From NCBI GenBank assembly GCA_012522085.1, contig JAAYLE010000064.1, positions 1 to 33,817 of the forward strand: a DNA stretch of 33,817 bases, in the 5' to 3' direction. The notes beneath the pieces were generated by a model that worked only from the letters and a program-made list of their open reading frames with translations, was not told the origin of the DNA and did not search any database. Positions 13,358 to 28,551 of this stretch are shown one piece after another (the stretch's first letter is position 1; every line of letters begins with the position of its first letter). The stretch comes from Bacillota bacterium (lineage in GTDB: Bacteria > Bacillota > Limnochordia > JAAZLZ01). A program made the translations under genes and the position numbers.

Positions 13358-13416
13358 AGGGGGTGATGCCACAAAGCACTAACCTTGAGGGAGGTGACAG
13401 AACGGAGGATGACTTT

Positions 13417-13561
13417 AAGCGCCTGGACTCAAACCTTTAGGTTTGAGTTGACGAGGTGGGGGATCTCGGATCATCGGCGGGTGACCCCCGGCCGGCCGCG
13501 GTCGATAGGCTTTCGACAAAGACCGGGAGCGATCCCGGGGACAATAGAAAGCTGAGCGGCG
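13417..13561 (+). ncRNA. glmS ribozyme: glmS ribozyme (glucosamine-6-phosphate-activated self-cleaving riboswitch)
   Basis: The leader of glmS matches the glmS ribozyme class. The core begins AAGCGCCTGGACTC, with the expected cleavage between A13418 and G13419. P1 is a perfect 9-bp helix (13427-13435 with 13440-13448, loop TTTA). The invariant TTGACGAGG follows at 13448-13456, then P2.1 (GGGGG 13458-13462 with CCCCC 13485-13489) enclosing ATCGGCGGGTG. P4 is CCGGGA (13523-13528) with TCCCGG (13533-13538), closed by a GCGA tetraloop, and ACAATAGAAAGC ends the domain. Known members bind glucosamine-6-phosphate as cofactor, cleave the mRNA and lower GlmS levels by degradation of the cut message. 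It lies 25 bases before the glmS start. Confidence 0.95.
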
Positions 13562-13585
13562 CTACCGGAACAGGAGGTTGACTAG

Positions 13586-15388
13586 ATGTGCGGAATCGTT
13601 GGCTATGTGGGCCCGCGCCCTGTGGCAGACGTCCTCTTGGATGGTCTGGAGCGACTCGAATATCGGGGTTATGACTCCGCGGGACTAGCCTTGGGGAGGA
13701 GCGGCGCCCTGAAGGTTTTCAAAACGGAAGGGCGGTTGACTGATTTGCGCAAGACGGTGGCTGTACCTGGGGCCCTGGTGGGGGCAGGACACACCCGCTG
13801 GGCCACCCATGGTCGGCCGTCTGTAGTCAATGCCCATCCCCACCTTGATTGTCATGGTCAAATCGCGGTGGTCCACAACGGGATCATCGAGAATTATGTG
13901 CAGCTTCGGGAAGAGCTAACCGATCAGGGACATCGGTTCCTCTCTGAGACGGACACGGAAGTGATTCCCCACCTGGTGGAGAAGTACTACCGGGGGGACC
14001 TCCCCGAAGCGGTGGCCAGGGCCCTACAGGATGTGCAAGGGTCTTTGGCGATCGTCGTTCTCCATGAGGAGCATCCCGACATGTTAGTGGTGGCAAGGAG
14101 GGACAGCCCCTTGATCATTGGACTGGGGCAGGGGGAGAACTACGTGGCCTCCGACATACCCGCTTTGCTTCCCTACACAAGAAATGTGCACGTCATGGAA
14201 AATGGCGAGATGGCTGTGCTCACCCAAGACGGGGTGAAGCTGACCGATTGGTCGGGGAGGGAAATTAAAATGAATCCCTATCAAGTGAACTGGGATCCAG
14301 CCCAAGCCGAGAAAGAAGGCTACGAGCATTTCATGCTGAAGGAGATCCACGAACAGCCTAGGGCCATCGAGGATACCCTGAAAGGCAAGATCAAGGGCTC
14401 GCAAGTGATCTTCGACTCACTGGATCTTCCTGTCAATCGATTCAATAAAGTAGTTATCCTCGGGTGCGGCACTGCCTGGCATGCCGGCCTGATGGGTAGA
14501 AAGTTCATTGAGACTTTGGCCAAGATCCCCGTTGAGGTGGATATTGCCTCGGAGTTTCGCTACCGGGATCCGATGGTTGATGAAGCCACGTTGACAATAG
14601 TCATCAGCCAATCGGGGGAGACGGCCGATACCTTAGGGGCCCTGCGGGAGGCTCGCAGTCGAGGCTCCCGGGTCGTGGCCATCACCAATGTGGTGGGCAG
14701 CACCGTCTCCCGGGAGGCCGATGATGTCATCTATACCCGGGCCGGCCCGGAGATCGCCGTTGCCTCAACTAAGGCTTACATGACCCAGCTCGTCTGCCTG
14801 CTCCTCTTCGCCCTATACTTAGCGCAGCGACGGGGCACGGTGGATGAAGGGGCTGCGGCCGAGCTTTTCGATGCCCTCAGGAGTCTTCCCGATCAAGTCA
14901 AAGAGGCCATCAAGACGGAAGGGAAGGTCAAGGATCTCGCCGAGAGGCTCCAGAAGGAACAACACGTCTTTTTCATCGGCCGGGGTCTGGATTACCCCCT
15001 GGCTATGGAAGCGGCCTTGAAGCTCAAGGAGGTCTCTTACATCCATGCCCAGCCCTACCCGGCGGGGGAGATGAAGCACGGCACCTTGGCCTTGGTCGTC
15101 GAAGGTCTGCCCATCGTCGCCATCGCGACCCAATCAGCATTGCGGGAGAAGATGCTGAACAACATCAAAGAAGTGAAGGCCAGGGGAGCCGATGTTGTCG
15201 TCATCGCGCCCGAAGGGGACGATCTGGACGGGGTGGGAGAGGCAGTCCACATCCCCCGGACCATGGACCTCCTCATGCCCCTCCTGGGAGCGGTCCCTTG
15301 CCAGCTGCTTGCTTATCATACCGCTAGGCTCAAAGGCTGTGATGTTGACAAGCCGCGGAACCTGGCTAAGAGCGTGACGGTGGAATAA
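13586..15388 (+). CDS. glmS: Glutamine-fructose-6-phosphate aminotransferase (isomerising)
   Basis: Makes glucosamine-6-phosphate from fructose-6-phosphate and glutamine, the entry to cell-wall amino sugars. The 600-residue protein starts MCGIVGYVGPRPV, so Cys2 becomes the N-terminal nucleophile of the class II amidotransferase domain (about 1-220, with GHTRWATHG and HNGIIENY). Two SIS domains follow (about 285-420 and 455-590), with SQSGETADTLGALREA and the C-terminal DKPRNLAKSVTVE. Start ATG 13586 is eight bases after AGGAGG at 13572-13577. The upstream ribozyme gives product feedback on expression. A terminator lies just downstream. Confidence 0.97.
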   Translation: MCGIVGYVGPRPVADVLLDGLERLEYRGYDSAGLALGRSGALKVFKTEGRLTDLRKTVAVPGALVGAGHTRWATHGRPSVVNAHPHLDCHGQIAVVHNGIIENYVQLREELTDQGHRFLSETDTEVIPHLVEKYYRGDLPEAVARALQDVQGSLAIVVLHEEHPDMLVVARRDSPLIIGLGQGENYVASDIPALLPYTRNVHVMENGEMAVLTQDGVKLTDWSGREIKMNPYQVNWDPAQAEKEGYEHFMLKEIHEQPRAIEDTLKGKIKGSQVIFDSLDLPVNRFNKVVILGCGTAWHAGLMGRKFIETLAKIPVEVDIASEFRYRDPMVDEATLTIVISQSGETADTLGALREARSRGSRVVAITNVVGSTVSREADDVIYTRAGPEIAVASTKAYMTQLVCLLLFALYLAQRRGTVDEGAAAELFDALRSLPDQVKEAIKTEGKVKDLAERLQKEQHVFFIGRGLDYPLAMEAALKLKEVSYIHAQPYPAGEMKHGTLALVVEGLPIVAIATQSALREKMLNNIKEVKARGADVVVIAPEGDDLDGVGEAVHIPRTMDLLMPLLGAVPCQLLAYHTARLKGCDVDKPRNLAKSVTVE

Positions 15389-22724: not shown

Positions 22725-24104
22725 GTGAAGGCCGACCTTTGCATAATCGGCGGTGGCCCTGGAGGTTATGTGGCTGCTATCCGGGCGGCCCAAATGGGCA
22801 AGACCGTTTGTCTGGTGGAAAAAGATGAAGTGGGGGGAACTTGCCTTAACAGGGGCTGCATCCCGACGAAAGCTTTGACCTCCACAGCGGAGTTGTTGGC
22901 TCGGATCAAGAGGGCGGGGAGTTTTGGCATCAAGGTCGATAACGTCGAAGTTGACTTCCCGGGAATGATGAAGCGCAAGGATCAGACCGTTGCCCGCCTG
23001 GTTAAGGGCATTCACTTCCTGCTCCAAAAAAACAAAGTCCAATTGCTGTCCGGGGTGGGCAAGATCAAAGGCCCCGGGCATGTTGAGGTCGCCCTGGCAG
23101 ACGGCACCATCCAGGAAGTCCGGGCGGAGGATGTCATCATCGCAACGGGCGCGGAGCCGGTAGTGTTTCCTGCTTTCGGATACGATGGCGAGCTGGTCAT
23201 CACCAGTGACGAGGCCCTTCAGCTCGATGCGATCCCGGAGCACATCATCATCGTTGGCGGCGGCGTCATCGGATGTGAATTTGCATCGATCTTTGCCACT
23301 TTAGGCAGCCAGGTGACCATCGTGGAAATGCTTCCCCGCTTGCTGCCCATGGCCGATGAAGAGATCAGCAAACAGCTGACCCAGTCCTTAAGGCGCCTCC
23401 GGGTCCAGATGCACACTGGGGTGAAGGTAGCCCGGGTGGATAAATCCGGTGGGCTCAAGGTGATCCTGGACACGGGCGAGGAGCTTCAGGGAGACAAGAT
23501 GCTGGTCTCCGTGGGCCGGCGGGTGAACACCGAGGGACTTGGCTTAGAGTCGGTAGGGATCAATACTAATGCCAAGCGCGAGATCGTCGTCGATGCCAAA
23601 ATGGCCACGAACGCACCTGGCTTTTGGGCCATTGGCGATGTGACCGACTGCCCGCTGAAGCTCGCCCACGTAGCTTCCTTCCAAGGCTTGGTCGCCGTAT
23701 CGAACATCGTTGGAGAAACCTGTACCATGGATTACAGTGCGGTCCCCAATTGTGTCTTCACCCAGCCGGAGGTGGCCTGGGTGGGGCTTTCCGAGTCTGA
23801 AGCCGCCGCGCAGGGCTATGAGGTGCAGGTGGGCAAGTTCCCCTTCCTGGCCAGCGGCAAAGCCTTGGCCATGGGGGAGAACGAAGGCATGGTCAAGATC
23901 ATCGCCGACAAGGAGGGCGGCGATTTGCTCGGGGTACATATCATCGGCCCCCATGCAAGCGATCTCATTGCCGAACCTACCCTCGCCATGAGCATCGGGC
24001 TTAGCTTGGAAGAGTTCGTTACCGCGGTCAGGGCCCATCCCACCTTGCCGGAAGCGGTCATGGAGGCGGCCGAGGCGGCCTTGGGACGTCCCATTCATTC
24101 ATAG
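22725..24104 (+). CDS. lpdA: Dihydrolipoamide dehydrogenase (E3) family
   Basis: FAD-dependent disulfide oxidoreductase of 459 residues, the E3 that reoxidises lipoamide with NAD+. It has the FAD motif IIGGGPGGYVAAIRAAQMG, the redox pair GGTCLNRGCIPTKA (Cys40, Cys45), the NAD motif IIVGGGVIGCEFASIFATLG, the second FAD motif GFWAIGDVTD, and the catalytic His in HPTLPEAVMEAAEAA. The HPTLPE form favours lipoamide dehydrogenase over mercuric or glutathione reductase. The GTG start is five bases after GGAGGGG. No E1, E2 or glycine-cleavage gene is nearby, so the partner complex must be encoded elsewhere. Confidence 0.9.
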   Translation: MKADLCIIGGGPGGYVAAIRAAQMGKTVCLVEKDEVGGTCLNRGCIPTKALTSTAELLARIKRAGSFGIKVDNVEVDFPGMMKRKDQTVARLVKGIHFLLQKNKVQLLSGVGKIKGPGHVEVALADGTIQEVRAEDVIIATGAEPVVFPAFGYDGELVITSDEALQLDAIPEHIIIVGGGVIGCEFASIFATLGSQVTIVEMLPRLLPMADEEISKQLTQSLRRLRVQMHTGVKVARVDKSGGLKVILDTGEELQGDKMLVSVGRRVNTEGLGLESVGINTNAKREIVVDAKMATNAPGFWAIGDVTDCPLKLAHVASFQGLVAVSNIVGETCTMDYSAVPNCVFTQPEVAWVGLSESEAAAQGYEVQVGKFPFLASGKALAMGENEGMVKIIADKEGGDLLGVHIIGPHASDLIAEPTLAMSIGLSLEEFVTAVRAHPTLPEAVMEAAEAALGRPIHS

Positions 24105-24110
24105 AGCATT

Positions 24111-24137
24111 GTGGGCGGACTCCCTCGGGAGTCCGCC
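24111..24137. repeat. 26-base hairpin repeat, copy 1 (between convergent lpdA and pfpI)
   Basis: GTGGGCGGACTCCCT followed by CGGGAGTCCGC folds into a 10-bp stem with a CTCG loop. It sits between the convergent lpdA and pfpI stops and directly abuts the pfpI stop. An almost identical copy (25 of 26 bases) abuts the dctM stop at 24957-24982. No T-run lies on either strand, so it may act as a shared 3'-end stabiliser or a Rho-independent-like stop without U-tract. Confidence 0.8.
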
Positions 24138-24713
24138 TTAAGCTAGCAGATCGATGATCGCTCGGCAAAACTGCGGCAAATCATCGGGATTGCGGCTCGA
24201 GATGATGTTGCCGTCAACCACCACTGCTTCGTCGACAAAGGTAGCCCCCGCGTTTTCCAGGTCATCCTTGATGGCGACGATGCCCGTCACCCGCCGGCCG
24301 GAGACAATCCCCGCCGAGATCATCAGCCAGGGTCCATGGCAAATGCCGGCGATGGGTTTGCCCTGGGCGGCGGCCTCCCGGACCAAGTTCACCGTGTGCG
24401 GGTCTCGCCGCAGATAGTCGGGGGCAAATCCGCCGGGGATGACGATGGCATCAAACTCATCCGGGGAAAGCTCGCCCACCGGCCTGATGTCGTAGCGCTT
24501 CCCCTCCCTGTTGACGATAAAGGGAACGGTGGTACCAAAGCGCCCGGTGATCGGCTTGCCCTGGAAGGCCGGTCGCGGGTGGAAGCCCATCTCCAACACT
24601 CCCATCGTGATCCAGGCTCCTTCCTCGCTCAGCCGGAGGAAGGGGAAGGTGACCTCCACATCTTCAAATTCGTTGGCGACTAAGATGAGTACCTTCTTTC
24701 CCGATAGCTTCAC
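24138..24713 (-). CDS. DJ-1/PfpI-family protein
   Basis: A 191-residue class I glutamine-amidotransferase-like protein of the PfpI/YhbO branch. The nucleophile elbow is AGICHGPWLMISAG (Cys125, His126), and the N-terminus has KVLILVANEFEDVEV with the conserved Glu. VIPGGFAPDYLRRD and SSRNPDDLPQF are family-typical. Relatives have been described as intracellular proteases, glyoxalases or deglycases; the exact activity cannot be read here. The GTG start is supported by AAGGAGG eight bases upstream; the longer frame to 24794 is unconserved. It is the last gene on the minus strand after the TRAP operon, but 269 bases and a 48-base element separate it from dctM, so it may have its own promoter. Confidence 0.88.
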   Translation of the reverse strand: MKLSGKKVLILVANEFEDVEVTFPFLRLSEEGAWITMGVLEMGFHPRPAFQGKPITGRFGTTVPFIVNREGKRYDIRPVGELSPDEFDAIVIPGGFAPDYLRRDPHTVNLVREAAAQGKPIAGICHGPWLMISAGIVSGRRVTGIVAIKDDLENAGATFVDEAVVVDGNIISSRNPDDLPQFCRAIIDLLA

Positions 24714-24841
24714 CGTGAAAACCTCCTTGGAAGAAATGATGGTAACGCCCGGTACGGGTGATGAACAGTTCGCCGATCCTGCCGCGCCGCCCATTCTAGG
24801 TGCGGCTGAGTGCTTCTGCTCCAGGATCGCCGGGTAGTAAG

Positions 24842-24889
24842 TAATTTTCTAGTTGAGCGGCAAGTCTCCTTTATTTAGGGGAAAGTTTT
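24842..24889 (-). repeat. 48-base element, copy A (upstream of pfpI)
   Basis: Written on the plus strand it begins TAATTTTCTAGTTGAGCGG and ends AGGGGAAAGTTTT. It matches the element at 27810-27857 in 40 of 48 positions without gaps. It lies 128 bases upstream of the pfpI start, reading in the same direction as copy B relative to dctP. It is AT-rich in a GC-rich context. It could be a protein-binding site, an alternative-sigma promoter region or a dispersed repeat. Confidence 0.75.
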
Positions 24890-24919
24890 ACCTAGGTTCC
24901 CCCATCACAGGCGCGGGAA

Positions 24920-24943
24920 GGTGGCGGCTATTCGGCCGCCATC
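24920..24943. other. Hairpin downstream of dctM
   Basis: GGCGGC (24923-24928) pairs with GCCGCC (24935-24940), extended by three more pairs at 24920-24922 with 24941-24943 (one wobble), loop TATTCG. It follows the repeat hairpin at the dctM 3' end. Together the two stem-loops could end or protect the TRAP operon transcript. No T-tract is visible on the minus strand. Confidence 0.5.
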
Positions 24944-24956
24944 CACTCAGGAGACA

Positions 24957-24982
24957 GTGGGCGGACTCCCTTGGGAGTCCGC
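24957..24982. repeat. 26-base hairpin repeat, copy 2 (abutting dctM stop)
   Basis: GTGGGCGGACTCCCT followed by TGGGAGTCCGC, one base different from copy 1 at 24111-24136. It begins immediately after the dctM stop codon on the minus strand and forms a 10-bp stem. The identical placement of both copies, flush with a minus-strand stop, suggests a 3'-end element or a recent duplication. Confidence 0.8.
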
Positions 24983-26275
24983 TCAGCCCATGAGCAAATC
25001 GGGGATGATGGTGACGATGCCCGGCACATAAGTGATGAGCAGCAGGCTTAGCAGTAAGGGAATGAAAAAGGGGAGGATGTGCCGGACCAGCTCTTCGACG
25101 GACAGGCCAGCGATCTTGGCGGTGACGAAGAGCACCAGCCCCACCGGGGGTGTGAGGAGCCCCAAGACCAGGTTGTATACGACCACTAGTCCGAAATGGA
25201 CCGGATCGATCCCTAGTTGGCGGACCAAGGGCATCATCACGGGAACGGTGATGGTGATGGCGGCTACCGGCTCCATGAAGCAGCCGATGATCAGGAGAAA
25301 CAAGTTGATCAGGGCCATTACTGCCCAGCGGCTCGTCGTCAAGGAACTGACGGTGCGTAAGATCATCTGGGGCAATTGGGCGGAAACGACCATGTAAGCA
25401 AAGGCGCTCGCAGCTCCGACGATGATCAGAACCTCCGCGGTGGAGCGCATGGTTTCCCTCGACAGGGTGAGCAGCTCCCGGAGGGAGATCTCGCGGTAGA
25501 CCATGCTCAGGGCGATGGCGTAGACAAAGGCGACCGCAGCCGCCTCGGTGGGGGTGAAGATCCCCGATAAGATCCCGCCCACCAGAATGACCGGGGTCAT
25601 CAAGGGCCAAAAGGCCCGGCGGAAGCTCCGCCACAGGGGAAGCCAACCGGCAAACGTACCCCGTTCATAACCTAGCTTGCGGCCAAAGTAAAACTCATTC
25701 ATCAGCATCAGGAAGATGCCGATCAACATCCCCGGCAAGATTCCCCCCAGCAAAAGTCGGCCGATGGAGGCTTCGGCCATGATGCCGTAAATGACTAGGG
25801 GGATGCTCGGCGGAATGATGGGTCCGATGGCCGATGAAGCGGCGGTGATGGCCGCGCTGTAGCCGATGTCGTAATCAGCATCCAGCATGGCCTTGATTTC
25901 GATGGGTCCAAGGCCCGACGCATCGGCCACCGCGGCTCCCGACATGCCCGCGAAGATCATGCTGGCCACCACGTTCACCTGCCCTAGCCCAAGCCGCATA
26001 TGGCCGACTAGGTGGTTGGCAAAGTCAAAGATCCGGCTGCTGATCCCGCCGATATTCATCAGGTTGCCGGTGAACATAAACAGCGGCACGGCTAGCAAGG
26101 GGAAACTGTCAACGCCGCTGAAGAGCCGTTGGGCGATGATGGTAGGGTCGGCGATGCCCCCTGATTCGATGTTCAGCAAGATCAAAGAGGCAAGGCCAAT
26201 AGCGAACCCGACAGGAATGCCGATGATCAGCAGGCAAAGGAGAATGCCTATAAAGCTAAGCACAGTGAAGGTCAT
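24983..26275 (-). CDS. dctM: TRAP transporter large permease subunit
   Basis: The 12-helix, sodium-driven transport subunit of a tripartite ATP-independent periplasmic transporter, 430 residues, the usual length. Hydrophobic helices run through the protein; diagnostic stretches are GIPVGFAIGLASLILL, PLFMFTGNLMNIGGIS, AGMSGAAVADASGLG, IGPIIPPSIPLVIYG and LLTPPVGLVLFVTAKIAG. The ATG at 26275 overlaps the dctQ stop (ATGA), so the two membrane subunits are translated together. A hairpin repeat begins right after its stop. Confidence 0.96.
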   Translation of the reverse strand: MTFTVLSFIGILLCLLIIGIPVGFAIGLASLILLNIESGGIADPTIIAQRLFSGVDSFPLLAVPLFMFTGNLMNIGGISSRIFDFANHLVGHMRLGLGQVNVVASMIFAGMSGAAVADASGLGPIEIKAMLDADYDIGYSAAITAASSAIGPIIPPSIPLVIYGIMAEASIGRLLLGGILPGMLIGIFLMLMNEFYFGRKLGYERGTFAGWLPLWRSFRRAFWPLMTPVILVGGILSGIFTPTEAAAVAFVYAIALSMVYREISLRELLTLSRETMRSTAEVLIIVGAASAFAYMVVSAQLPQMILRTVSSLTTSRWAVMALINLFLLIIGCFMEPVAAITITVPVMMPLVRQLGIDPVHFGLVVVYNLVLGLLTPPVGLVLFVTAKIAGLSVEELVRHILPFFIPLLLSLLLITYVPGIVTIIPDLLMG

Positions 26276-26763
26276 AATTGCCCCTCCTCGGCCCTTGGGC
26301 TGTGGGGTGCGATCCCAACTAGAGTGCGAAGGATGTTAATCAAAGTGTAAAGACTGGCTAGGAAAAAGCTGGCCGCCATCCCCGCGTAAATGTAGGACAT
26401 CCGCAGCCAGAGAAGGGATGTGGCCGTTTCCGGGCCGGCGATCGTCATCATGTTTAGCCCGCCGCGAAACATGGCCCAGGTAAAATAAAGCACAGCCCCC
26501 CTGGTGATGATCCCCGCGGGGATCGCGGCCGCCGGCATCCTCTTCCAGGGGTCCACAGCCACCAGGTGGGTTTCTTCCCGCAAGGCGATGGCGCTGCCGA
26601 GGAAAGTGATTTGCACCAATAGGTAACGGGCGATTTCCTCCGTCCAGGGGGACGGGACTTTCAGTAGAAAGCGGCAGACTACCTGCAGGAAAACGACCAG
26701 GCAAAGGGCCCAGTACATGGTGGTTCCCAGGATGTCAAGGGCGCGGTTGAATTTGTTCCACAT
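26272..26763 (-). CDS. dctQ: TRAP transporter small permease subunit
   Basis: Four-helix membrane subunit that pairs with DctM, 163 residues. Hydrophobic segments lie at about 12-32, 46-62, 84-102 and 123-145, with the family motif VVCRFLLKVPSPWTEEIARYL and FLGSAIALREETHLVAVD. The ATG at 26763 follows TTGGAGGATTC. It lies 42 bases downstream of dctP, separated by a GC-only stem-loop, and overlaps dctM by four bases. Confidence 0.95.
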   Translation of the reverse strand: MWNKFNRALDILGTTMYWALCLVVFLQVVCRFLLKVPSPWTEEIARYLLVQITFLGSAIALREETHLVAVDPWKRMPAAAIPAGIITRGAVLYFTWAMFRGGLNMMTIAGPETATSLLWLRMSYIYAGMAASFFLASLYTLINILRTLVGIAPHSPRAEEGQL

Positions 26764-26782
26764 ATGAATCCTCCAATAGGTT

Positions 26783-26804
26783 CCGGGGGGGCGGCCCCCC
26801 CCGG
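26783..26804 (-). other. GC-only stem-loop between dctP and dctQ
   Basis: CCGGGGGGG (26783-26791) pairs with CCCCCCCGG (26796-26804), a perfect 9-bp all-GC stem with a four-base loop. On the minus strand it begins one base after the dctP stop. There is no T-tract. Similar stem-loops after binding-protein genes in transporter operons protect the upstream message and leave the binding protein in excess of the permease; that role here is inferred. Confidence 0.7.
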
Positions 26805-26805
26805 T

Positions 26806-27777
26806 CTAGTAGCTCAGTATTTCATCCCACGTGGTCACATCCCACTCAGAGGCAAACAGATCCGTAATGGCTGGTCTGGCCTTCTCCTGCAAAGCCGCCG
26901 CATCGGGGACAATGGGGGTCATGCCCCCCTCTTGAAGCTGGGCAATGAGCTTAGCTTCGGTCTCCAGAGCCCAGCGGTCACCGTACTCGGCGGCTTCTCG
27001 CGCCGCTTCGAGGATAATGGACCGGTCTTTCTCATTGAGTCCTTTGATGAAGGGTTCATTGAGCATGAAAACGCCCACCGCAACCATGTGGCCGGAGAGG
27101 ACCAAGTATTTTTGCACTTCGTTTAGCCTGTAGGATGTAAGCTGGGAGGCAGGTCCTTCGGAGGCATCGGCTACGCCCGTTTGCAGCGCGGTGAACAGTT
27201 CAGGCAACGCGACGACGGTCGGCAAGGTTCCGAGTTCCTGCCAGATCTTCACCCAGGACGGATCCTGAGGGACGCGCATTTTGATGCCCGCTAGGTCCTC
27301 TGGCTTGGTGATGGGCTTATTGGCCGTAATGTGACGAACGCCCCGGTAGTAGATGCCAGCGACCATGATCCGGTTGTCTAACAGGATCTGGCGCACTTCT
27401 TCACCGATTGCCCCCTGCCATACGCTTTTCCAGTGGTCATAGTCCCGCATCACGTAAGGGGCATCCATGAAGCCGTACTTGTGGGCAAACATGTGGACGG
27501 GCATCATGCCGCTGGTGACTCCTTGGACGGACCCCATCTTTAAAGCTTGGATGGTGTCCCGTTCACCTCCCATGGCCCCTCCGGAAAACACTTGGACTTC
27601 GATGGCGCCATCGCTTTTGCCCGCGACCAATTCGGCAAACTTCTCCGCTACTACGACCGCCTCATTGCCCGGCGGATAGGCGGTCGCCAGCTTGAAGATC
27701 ATTTTGGCCTCGGCCCCAAAGCCGCCGATCAGCAAGAGCCCGATCAATAATGGTAGCACCAGGATCTTCCACTTCAT
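26806..27777 (-). CDS. dctP: TRAP transporter substrate-binding protein (DctP family)
   Basis: Extracytoplasmic solute receptor of the TRAP system, 323 residues. The N-terminal 24 residues form a signal peptide: MKWK, a hydrophobic core LVLPLLIGLLLIGGFG, and an AEA cleavage site before KMIFKLATAYPPGNEA. GIKMRVPQDPSWVKIW carries the conserved Arg that pairs with the substrate carboxylate, and LPELFTALQTGVADASEGP is the family signature. No lipobox Cys is seen. ATG 27777 is preceded by GGGAGGGAAGG. The ligand is probably an organic or sugar acid, but it cannot be identified. A 48-base element lies 32 bases upstream. Confidence 0.95.
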   Translation of the reverse strand: MKWKILVLPLLIGLLLIGGFGAEAKMIFKLATAYPPGNEAVVVAEKFAELVAGKSDGAIEVQVFSGGAMGGERDTIQALKMGSVQGVTSGMMPVHMFAHKYGFMDAPYVMRDYDHWKSVWQGAIGEEVRQILLDNRIMVAGIYYRGVRHITANKPITKPEDLAGIKMRVPQDPSWVKIWQELGTLPTVVALPELFTALQTGVADASEGPASQLTSYRLNEVQKYLVLSGHMVAVGVFMLNEPFIKGLNEKDRSIILEAAREAAEYGDRWALETEAKLIAQLQEGGMTPIVPDAAALQEKARPAITDLFASEWDVTTWDEILSY

Positions 27778-27809
27778 GCTGCCTTCCCTCCCCGAGATCT
27801 AGGTATTAC

Positions 27810-27857
27810 TAATTTTCTAGTAGAGTGGTAATTTTCCTTTATTTCAGGCAAAGTTTT
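27810..27857 (-). repeat. 48-base element, copy B (upstream of dctP)
   Basis: Written on the plus strand it begins TAATTTTCTAGTAGAGTGG and ends CAGGCAAAGTTTT, matching copy A (24842-24889) in 40 of 48 positions with no gap. TAATTTTC occurs twice inside it, 19 bases apart; copy A keeps only the first clearly. On the minus strand it lies just upstream of the dctP ribosome binding site, in the 5' untranslated or promoter region. A TTACCA with 17-base spacing to TAATAC is a weak promoter candidate. Confidence 0.75.
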
Positions 27858-27981
27858 TCAGTCTTGGTGGTCGCCAGCTCCCTGATGATGGTCTGGGTGC
27901 CAGAAGGTTACACCTCCCCCAGGTAGGAAGGAGCCATGGTCCTAGCGAAGCTTGTCCGCAAACTTGAGGGGAGGACTTGAG

Positions 27982-28551
27982 TTGCGATCGCTTGGGGTTT
28001 TACTGGCCATCTTCCTTGCCGCGTGTCCGGCTTGGGCCCAGGGGATTGGCGATGCTGACGGAGCGGCAGCGACGGCTTGGGATGAAATAGGACAGCTTGA
28101 CTATGAGGTGGGCATTGTCTACTTCGTGGATGGGGAAGGACGGCTGCTGAAGACGGCCCGGGTGAGCCAGGGCATGGCCAGGGGCCTTTATTACGTTCCC
28201 TGGGAGCTGGTTTGGACGAAGCTGCTTCCCCCGGATGTCGAGCGGGTTTTTCTCGTCCACAATCATCCCGGAGGGAACTGGCGCCTCAGCCAGGAGGATA
28301 TCGAGCTGGGACGTTTCTGGGCCGAGTGGGCCCAACGGCGGGGAATCACTTTTGACTTGATTGCCGTTGCGCCCAGTGGGCGGTACACGAGCCTGCGGGA
28401 AGAGGGGCTTATACTGCCCGGGGAGGTCGAGTTAAGCCCCTTTGACCTTTATCTGTACCTTCTTGAACCTAGTCTGGCCATGATCGTCGAGGGGTTAAGC
28501 AGCGTCCTCGGTGCCAGACTTGACGTCCACAGCACCCTGTTCCCGATCTAG
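27982..28551 (+). CDS. Exported RadC-like (JAMM-motif) protein
   Basis: A 189-residue protein with an N-terminal export signal (MRSLGVLLAIFLAACPAWA, then QG) and a RadC/JAB-type domain. The zinc motif is visible as HNHPGG (His93, His95) followed by LSQEDI (Ser103, Asp106), with Glu42 in LDYEVGIVYFVD as the likely upstream acid. The domain ends with YTSLREEGLILPG, close to the C-terminus of RadC (YFSFREEGLL type). Normal RadC is cytoplasmic and has a helix-hairpin-helix N-terminus; both points differ here. LAAC could also be a lipobox (Cys15), giving a lipoprotein. The TTG at 27982 is seven bases after GAGGGGAGG. A secreted metalloprotease is a possibility only. Confidence 0.78.
   Translation: MRSLGVLLAIFLAACPAWAQGIGDADGAAATAWDEIGQLDYEVGIVYFVDGEGRLLKTARVSQGMARGLYYVPWELVWTKLLPPDVERVFLVHNHPGGNWRLSQEDIELGRFWAEWAQRRGITFDLIAVAPSGRYTSLREEGLILPGEVELSPFDLYLYLLEPSLAMIVEGLSSVLGARLDVHSTLFPI

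Follow-up and report, generated by a model that had tools for sequence, protein, structure and literature searches.

Two similar AT-rich elements in a GC-rich Bacillota genome lie upstream of two minus-strand genes, one for the solute-binding protein of a TRAP transporter (dctP) and the other for a DJ-1/PfpI family protein (pfpI), and the locus raises the question of what these elements are and whether they place both genes under common control. The window analyzed here is the whole 33,817-nucleotide stretch of contig JAAYLE010000064.1. A repeat finder confirmed the 48-base direct repeat of the original prediction, with copies at positions 24842-24889 (before pfpI) and 27810-27857 (before dctP) that share 40 of 48 bases (83%), gap-free and in the same orientation. 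The 47-base consensus of the pair matches exactly two sites in the window and none in 100 shuffles. The AT-rich character of the copies was borne out by counting, which gave GC contents of 35% and 27%, and the position of both copies 5' of minus-strand genes likewise held. The minus strand gives the proper reading of the element; on it both copies have the form AAAACTTTnCCnnAAATA-AGGA-N17-GAA-AATTA, with the letters AAAACTTTnCCnnAAATAAAGGA...CTAGAAAATTA. The similarity extends past the 48 bases to a TAnTACC motif, about 57 bases in total, so that the whole pfpI copy occupies positions 24833-24889 and ends in TACTACC, and the whole dctP copy occupies positions 27802-27857 and ends in TAATACC. 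Beyond these approximately 57 bases, no residual similarity between the flanks of the two copies was detected on either side.

The pfpI gene (24138-24716, minus strand) was identified by matches to PF01965 (158 bits) and to TIGR01382 (above the cut-off). Its start is the GTG at 24716, preceded by AAGGAGG and conserved in the sister species; the ATG at 24794, which would open a longer frame, is unlikely to be used, given that the stretch from 24794 to 24716 shows no conservation as a leader. Downstream of the 27810-27857 element, a domain search revealed the minus-strand genes in the order dctP (26806-27777, PF03480), the first gene of the TRAP operon with its ATG at 27777, then dctQ (26272-26763, PF04290) for the small membrane subunit and dctM (24983-26275, PF06808) for the large membrane subunit. 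The dctPQM genes and pfpI form separate transcription units with one element upstream of each. They are divided by a minus-strand GC-rich hairpin, GCGGACTCCC-NN-GGGAGTCCGC, located at the end of dctM (24957-24985), and a near-identical GC-rich hairpin lies directly after pfpI on the same strand (24111-24137). The hairpin is not a classical terminator, because it lacks a T run. Both units are thus alike at both ends, with a 5' promoter and a 3' hairpin; the hairpin is present at both units in both species and nowhere else in the approximately 220 kb examined. Such a pair of 3' hairpins is compatible with twin regulated units as well as with a duplicated frame. TRAP transporters and PfpI were not found together in the literature collection searched. 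Elsewhere in the window, a glmS ribozyme riboswitch (91 bits) occupies positions 13407-13563, upstream of glmS at 13586.

The core of the element, AGGA-N17-GAA, is the promoter signature of sigma-H (Spo0H), as in the B. subtilis consensus. In the pfpI copy the -35-like AGGA is located at 24867-24870 and the -10-like GAAA at 24846-24849; in the dctP copy the corresponding boxes are at 27835-27838 and 27814-27817, and the two boxes are 17 bases apart in each case, all on the minus strand. For comparison, 30 SigH promoters published for C. difficile served to build a SigH matrix, independent of the present finding (PMC7438776; those of fusA1, cwp27, spo0A and spoIIAA are among the promoters in its Table 3). 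With this matrix the dctP copy is the best site of the window and the pfpI copy the third best, one other place scoring above the latter, and in the sister locus (L053) the two copies rank first and second. AGGA and GAA are invariant in the four copies from the two species, the context of the -35 box is AAAGGA or AGAGGA in all four, and the spacing is 17 in four of four, compared with 17 or 18 in 28 of the 30 C. difficile promoters. Against the SigH reading, the -10 box is GAAA, its fourth base differing from the T of a strict GAAT, though several C. difficile SigH promoters have GAAA as well (PMC7438776). A sigma-A-type pair (TTGACA-16/18-TATAAT-like) was not found in positions 23900-28300. 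The original prediction had left the element without a class; the comparison with mapped SigH promoters supplies one.

A motif search of the genome and its relatives, on which the original prediction turned, found both copies kept upstream of the same genes in a sister species but no further copies in the genome itself. This genome (1.97 Mb in 223 contigs, 93% complete) contains only the two copies according to pattern and profile searches; genome-wide counts refer to pattern and model searches plus chosen stretches. In the sister species of the same genus (G002, Bacillota MAG JAAYLV01) the gene order is the same and the two copies occupy orthologous places, with DctP 93% and PfpI 95% identical between the species. 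Within the 48 bases neither orthologous pair shows an indel, in contrast to the turned-over flank of the pfpI copy. The third member of the genus (87% complete) lacks the element as well as close relatives of this dctP and of this pfpI. Among the 73 genomes of the class there was no other convincing match (next best E-value of 0.009 per genome), and a loose version of the element pattern gave matches at about the control level in 101 genomes. The element is tied to one gene module. A remoter Bacillota MAG (L061) carries a related TRAP operon (71% DctP identity) but not the element. Behind this operon lie what read as broken dapA-like and pfpI-like remnants (L061:3380-3880), hinting at an older association of TRAP and pfpI; no AGG-N18/19-GAA site was found upstream of dctP in this TRAP relative.

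SigH-type promoters are a genome-wide class in this lineage. Strict sites of the form AGGAWWT-N14/15-GAATW are enriched about ten-fold in the genome carrying the window (20 versus 2 for the reversed control), the corresponding counts are 23:0 and 25:2 for its two congeners, and an excess is seen in most of the 73 genomes of the class. The strict sites of the genome precede, among others, a Spo0A-like gene, the spoIIA region (SpoIIAB), hpf, greA and ispH. The two boxes of these sites persist in orthologues with differing spacers, though for many of the sites the two close species also agree well in spacer and flanks. Of 26 other dctP genes of the genome, selected regardless of motif, 13 are preceded within 250 bases by AGGA-N17/18-GAA, whereas 300 shuffles average 2.3 and never exceed 7. 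The spacing peaks sharply at 17. This result suggests that sigma-H controls solute uptake broadly in this lineage. Examples of such sites are G000:C197:6360 and C106:6703, as well as those on C195, C18 and C149, where G000 is the genome carrying the window. The TRAP repertoire is unusually large, with about 24-32 DctP-like proteins per genome of approximately 2 Mb in the three genomes G000, G001 and G002. Ten sigma-70-family genes are encoded in the genome; a canonical SigH gene (L073) scores 374 bits against the TIGR02859 cut-off of 295, and a second, divergent SigH-like paralogue (L075) is located at G000:C180:4735-4941.

The SigH core does not account for the likeness of the two copies outside it. 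With AGGA and GAA excluded from the aligned 48 bases, 33 of 41 positions are identical. Other pairs formed by 19 SigH-type promoters, 170 in all, agree at 12.7 positions on average and at 21 at most. The upstream blocks, AAAACTTTCCCCTAAATAA in the pfpI copy (24871-24889) and AAAACTTTGCCTGAAATAA in the dctP copy (27839-27857), both on the minus strand, lie outside the SigH consensus, and the former may be a regulator site or a trace of duplication. The non-core likeness reflects either an extra common regulator or the copying of one promoter from the other. On the former account, which is somewhat less likely than not, a dedicated transcription factor would bind the AAAACTTTnCCnnAAATA block just upstream of the -35 box and might contact the spacer as well. 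The SigH-type promoters of both units would gain substrate-specific control in this way, so that the account complements the promoter reading rather than replacing it. The excess of non-core agreement over other SigH-type pairings speaks for such an operator, as do the end of the similarity at promoter-sized borders and the 48 bases free of indels beside the turned-over flank of the pfpI copy. Non-core positions, however, differ between the species at 19 of 82, against 34% at four-fold sites, so that extra constraint is only weakly supported (p=0.03), and the dctP copy alone shows none. Moreover, no transcription factor gene is evident beside the dctPQM and pfpI units in the window, and the element has neither a known operator match nor a significant internal repeat: the operators of CodY, CcpA, Spo0A, SinR, Rex, Fur, PerR and LexA do not fit, that of CodY (AATTTTCWGAAAATT) having at least five mismatches and 12 equal or better sites in the window, and direct repeats within the element, at distances of 19 and 21 bases, are matched by 144 of 500 column shuffles. 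Common descent, whose chances come close to even, would explain the non-core likeness as inherited from a promoter, with its terminal hairpin, that was copied to a place in front of the other gene shortly before the species split. The weak non-core constraint and the near-identical 3' hairpins agree with this account, and so do the paralogous differences (9 of 49 in G000, 15 of 49 in G002), which are about as large as the orthologous ones (8 of 49 and 12 of 49). The absence of flank similarity is harder to accommodate, since it requires that the copied piece coincided with the promoter or that both species lost the flanks.

An element that serves only as the binding site of an activator or repressor, next to promoters of the sigma-A type such as TTnCC-N17/18-TACTAC, is improbable. 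All four copies do keep TAnTACC, and its position would be plausible, but no sigma-A-type site occurs in 23900-28300, and the AGGA-N17-GAA match, the genome-wide class and the matrix ranks would all be coincidence. Least probable by far is a dispersed repeat or a riboswitch-like RNA leader, both raised in the original prediction, although the length of the element and its paired occurrence upstream of genes would suit them. A genome-wide dispersed intergenic repeat was rejected, because only two copies exist per genome, at orthologous places in the sister species, and in the third species the element is absent together with the module. A conserved leader is not supported: no Rfam family matches at the elements, the consensus fold amounts to two pairs at -0.5 kcal/mol, with no conserved RNA structure, and the element is located upstream of the predicted transcription start; no convincing copies were found in other genomes of the class.

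Twin SigH-type promoters, one for dctPQM and one for pfpI, are most probably what the elements represent, and with such promoters the two units would be co-expressed. The suggestion that a regulatory site co-controls the TRAP operon and pfpI thus holds in substance, except that the core is a sigma-H-type promoter rather than an operator only. The evidence from sequence is strong: the two sequences and how they are conserved, the resemblance to published SigH promoters, the promoter class across the genome and the sigH genes are established. The use of SigH, the start points and the condition of expression are predicted as follows. At both elements, the minus-strand -35 box AGGA, the 17-base spacer and the -10 box GAA(A) would be recognized by RNA polymerase with SigH or its divergent paralogue, which would initiate both transcripts a few bases past GAAAATTA. 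One promoter would drive dctPQM and the other pfpI, with the hairpin separating the units. Uptake of a TRAP substrate and PfpI would then be switched on jointly, the expected condition being nutrient limitation or the transition to stationary phase. A further extension, rather doubtful at present, is an extended SigH-type promoter whose AAAACTTTnCCnnAAATA block and spacer would be recognized by a dedicated regulator, or by the second SigH paralogue with a preference of its own, linking one TRAP transporter to PfpI; more broadly, SigH-type control of TRAP uptake genes would be typical of this uncultured Bacillota lineage.

What appeared as an anonymous repeat becomes a testable statement, namely that a TRAP transporter and a DJ-1/PfpI protein constitute a module under the same sigma factor. 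The occurrence of SigH-type promoters at half of the tested dctP genes indicates that a sigma factor of sporulation initiation seems to manage nutrient uptake in this lineage, for which the sulfonate transporters of C. difficile offer a partial parallel (PMC7438776). The kind of promoter is known; the novelty lies in its twin arrangement and in how abundant SigH-type promoters are before TRAP genes in the lineage. The sites before the other dctP genes resemble the elements in their two boxes, the spacing and the similar distance from dctP, but they lack the AAAACTTTnCC block, and their spacers have no sequence in common with those of the elements. With the SigH promoters of Firmicutes the elements share AGGA, the 17-18 base spacing and GAA(T/A), and their letters are very close to those of C. 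difficile fusA1 (AGGACAATTACC...TAGAAATA) and cwp27 (AAAGGAAAATA...TAGAATTA). Unlike the C. difficile SigH promoters, they have an upstream block and a spacer in common with each other, they serve a TRAP operon and pfpI, and their use by SigH is predicted.
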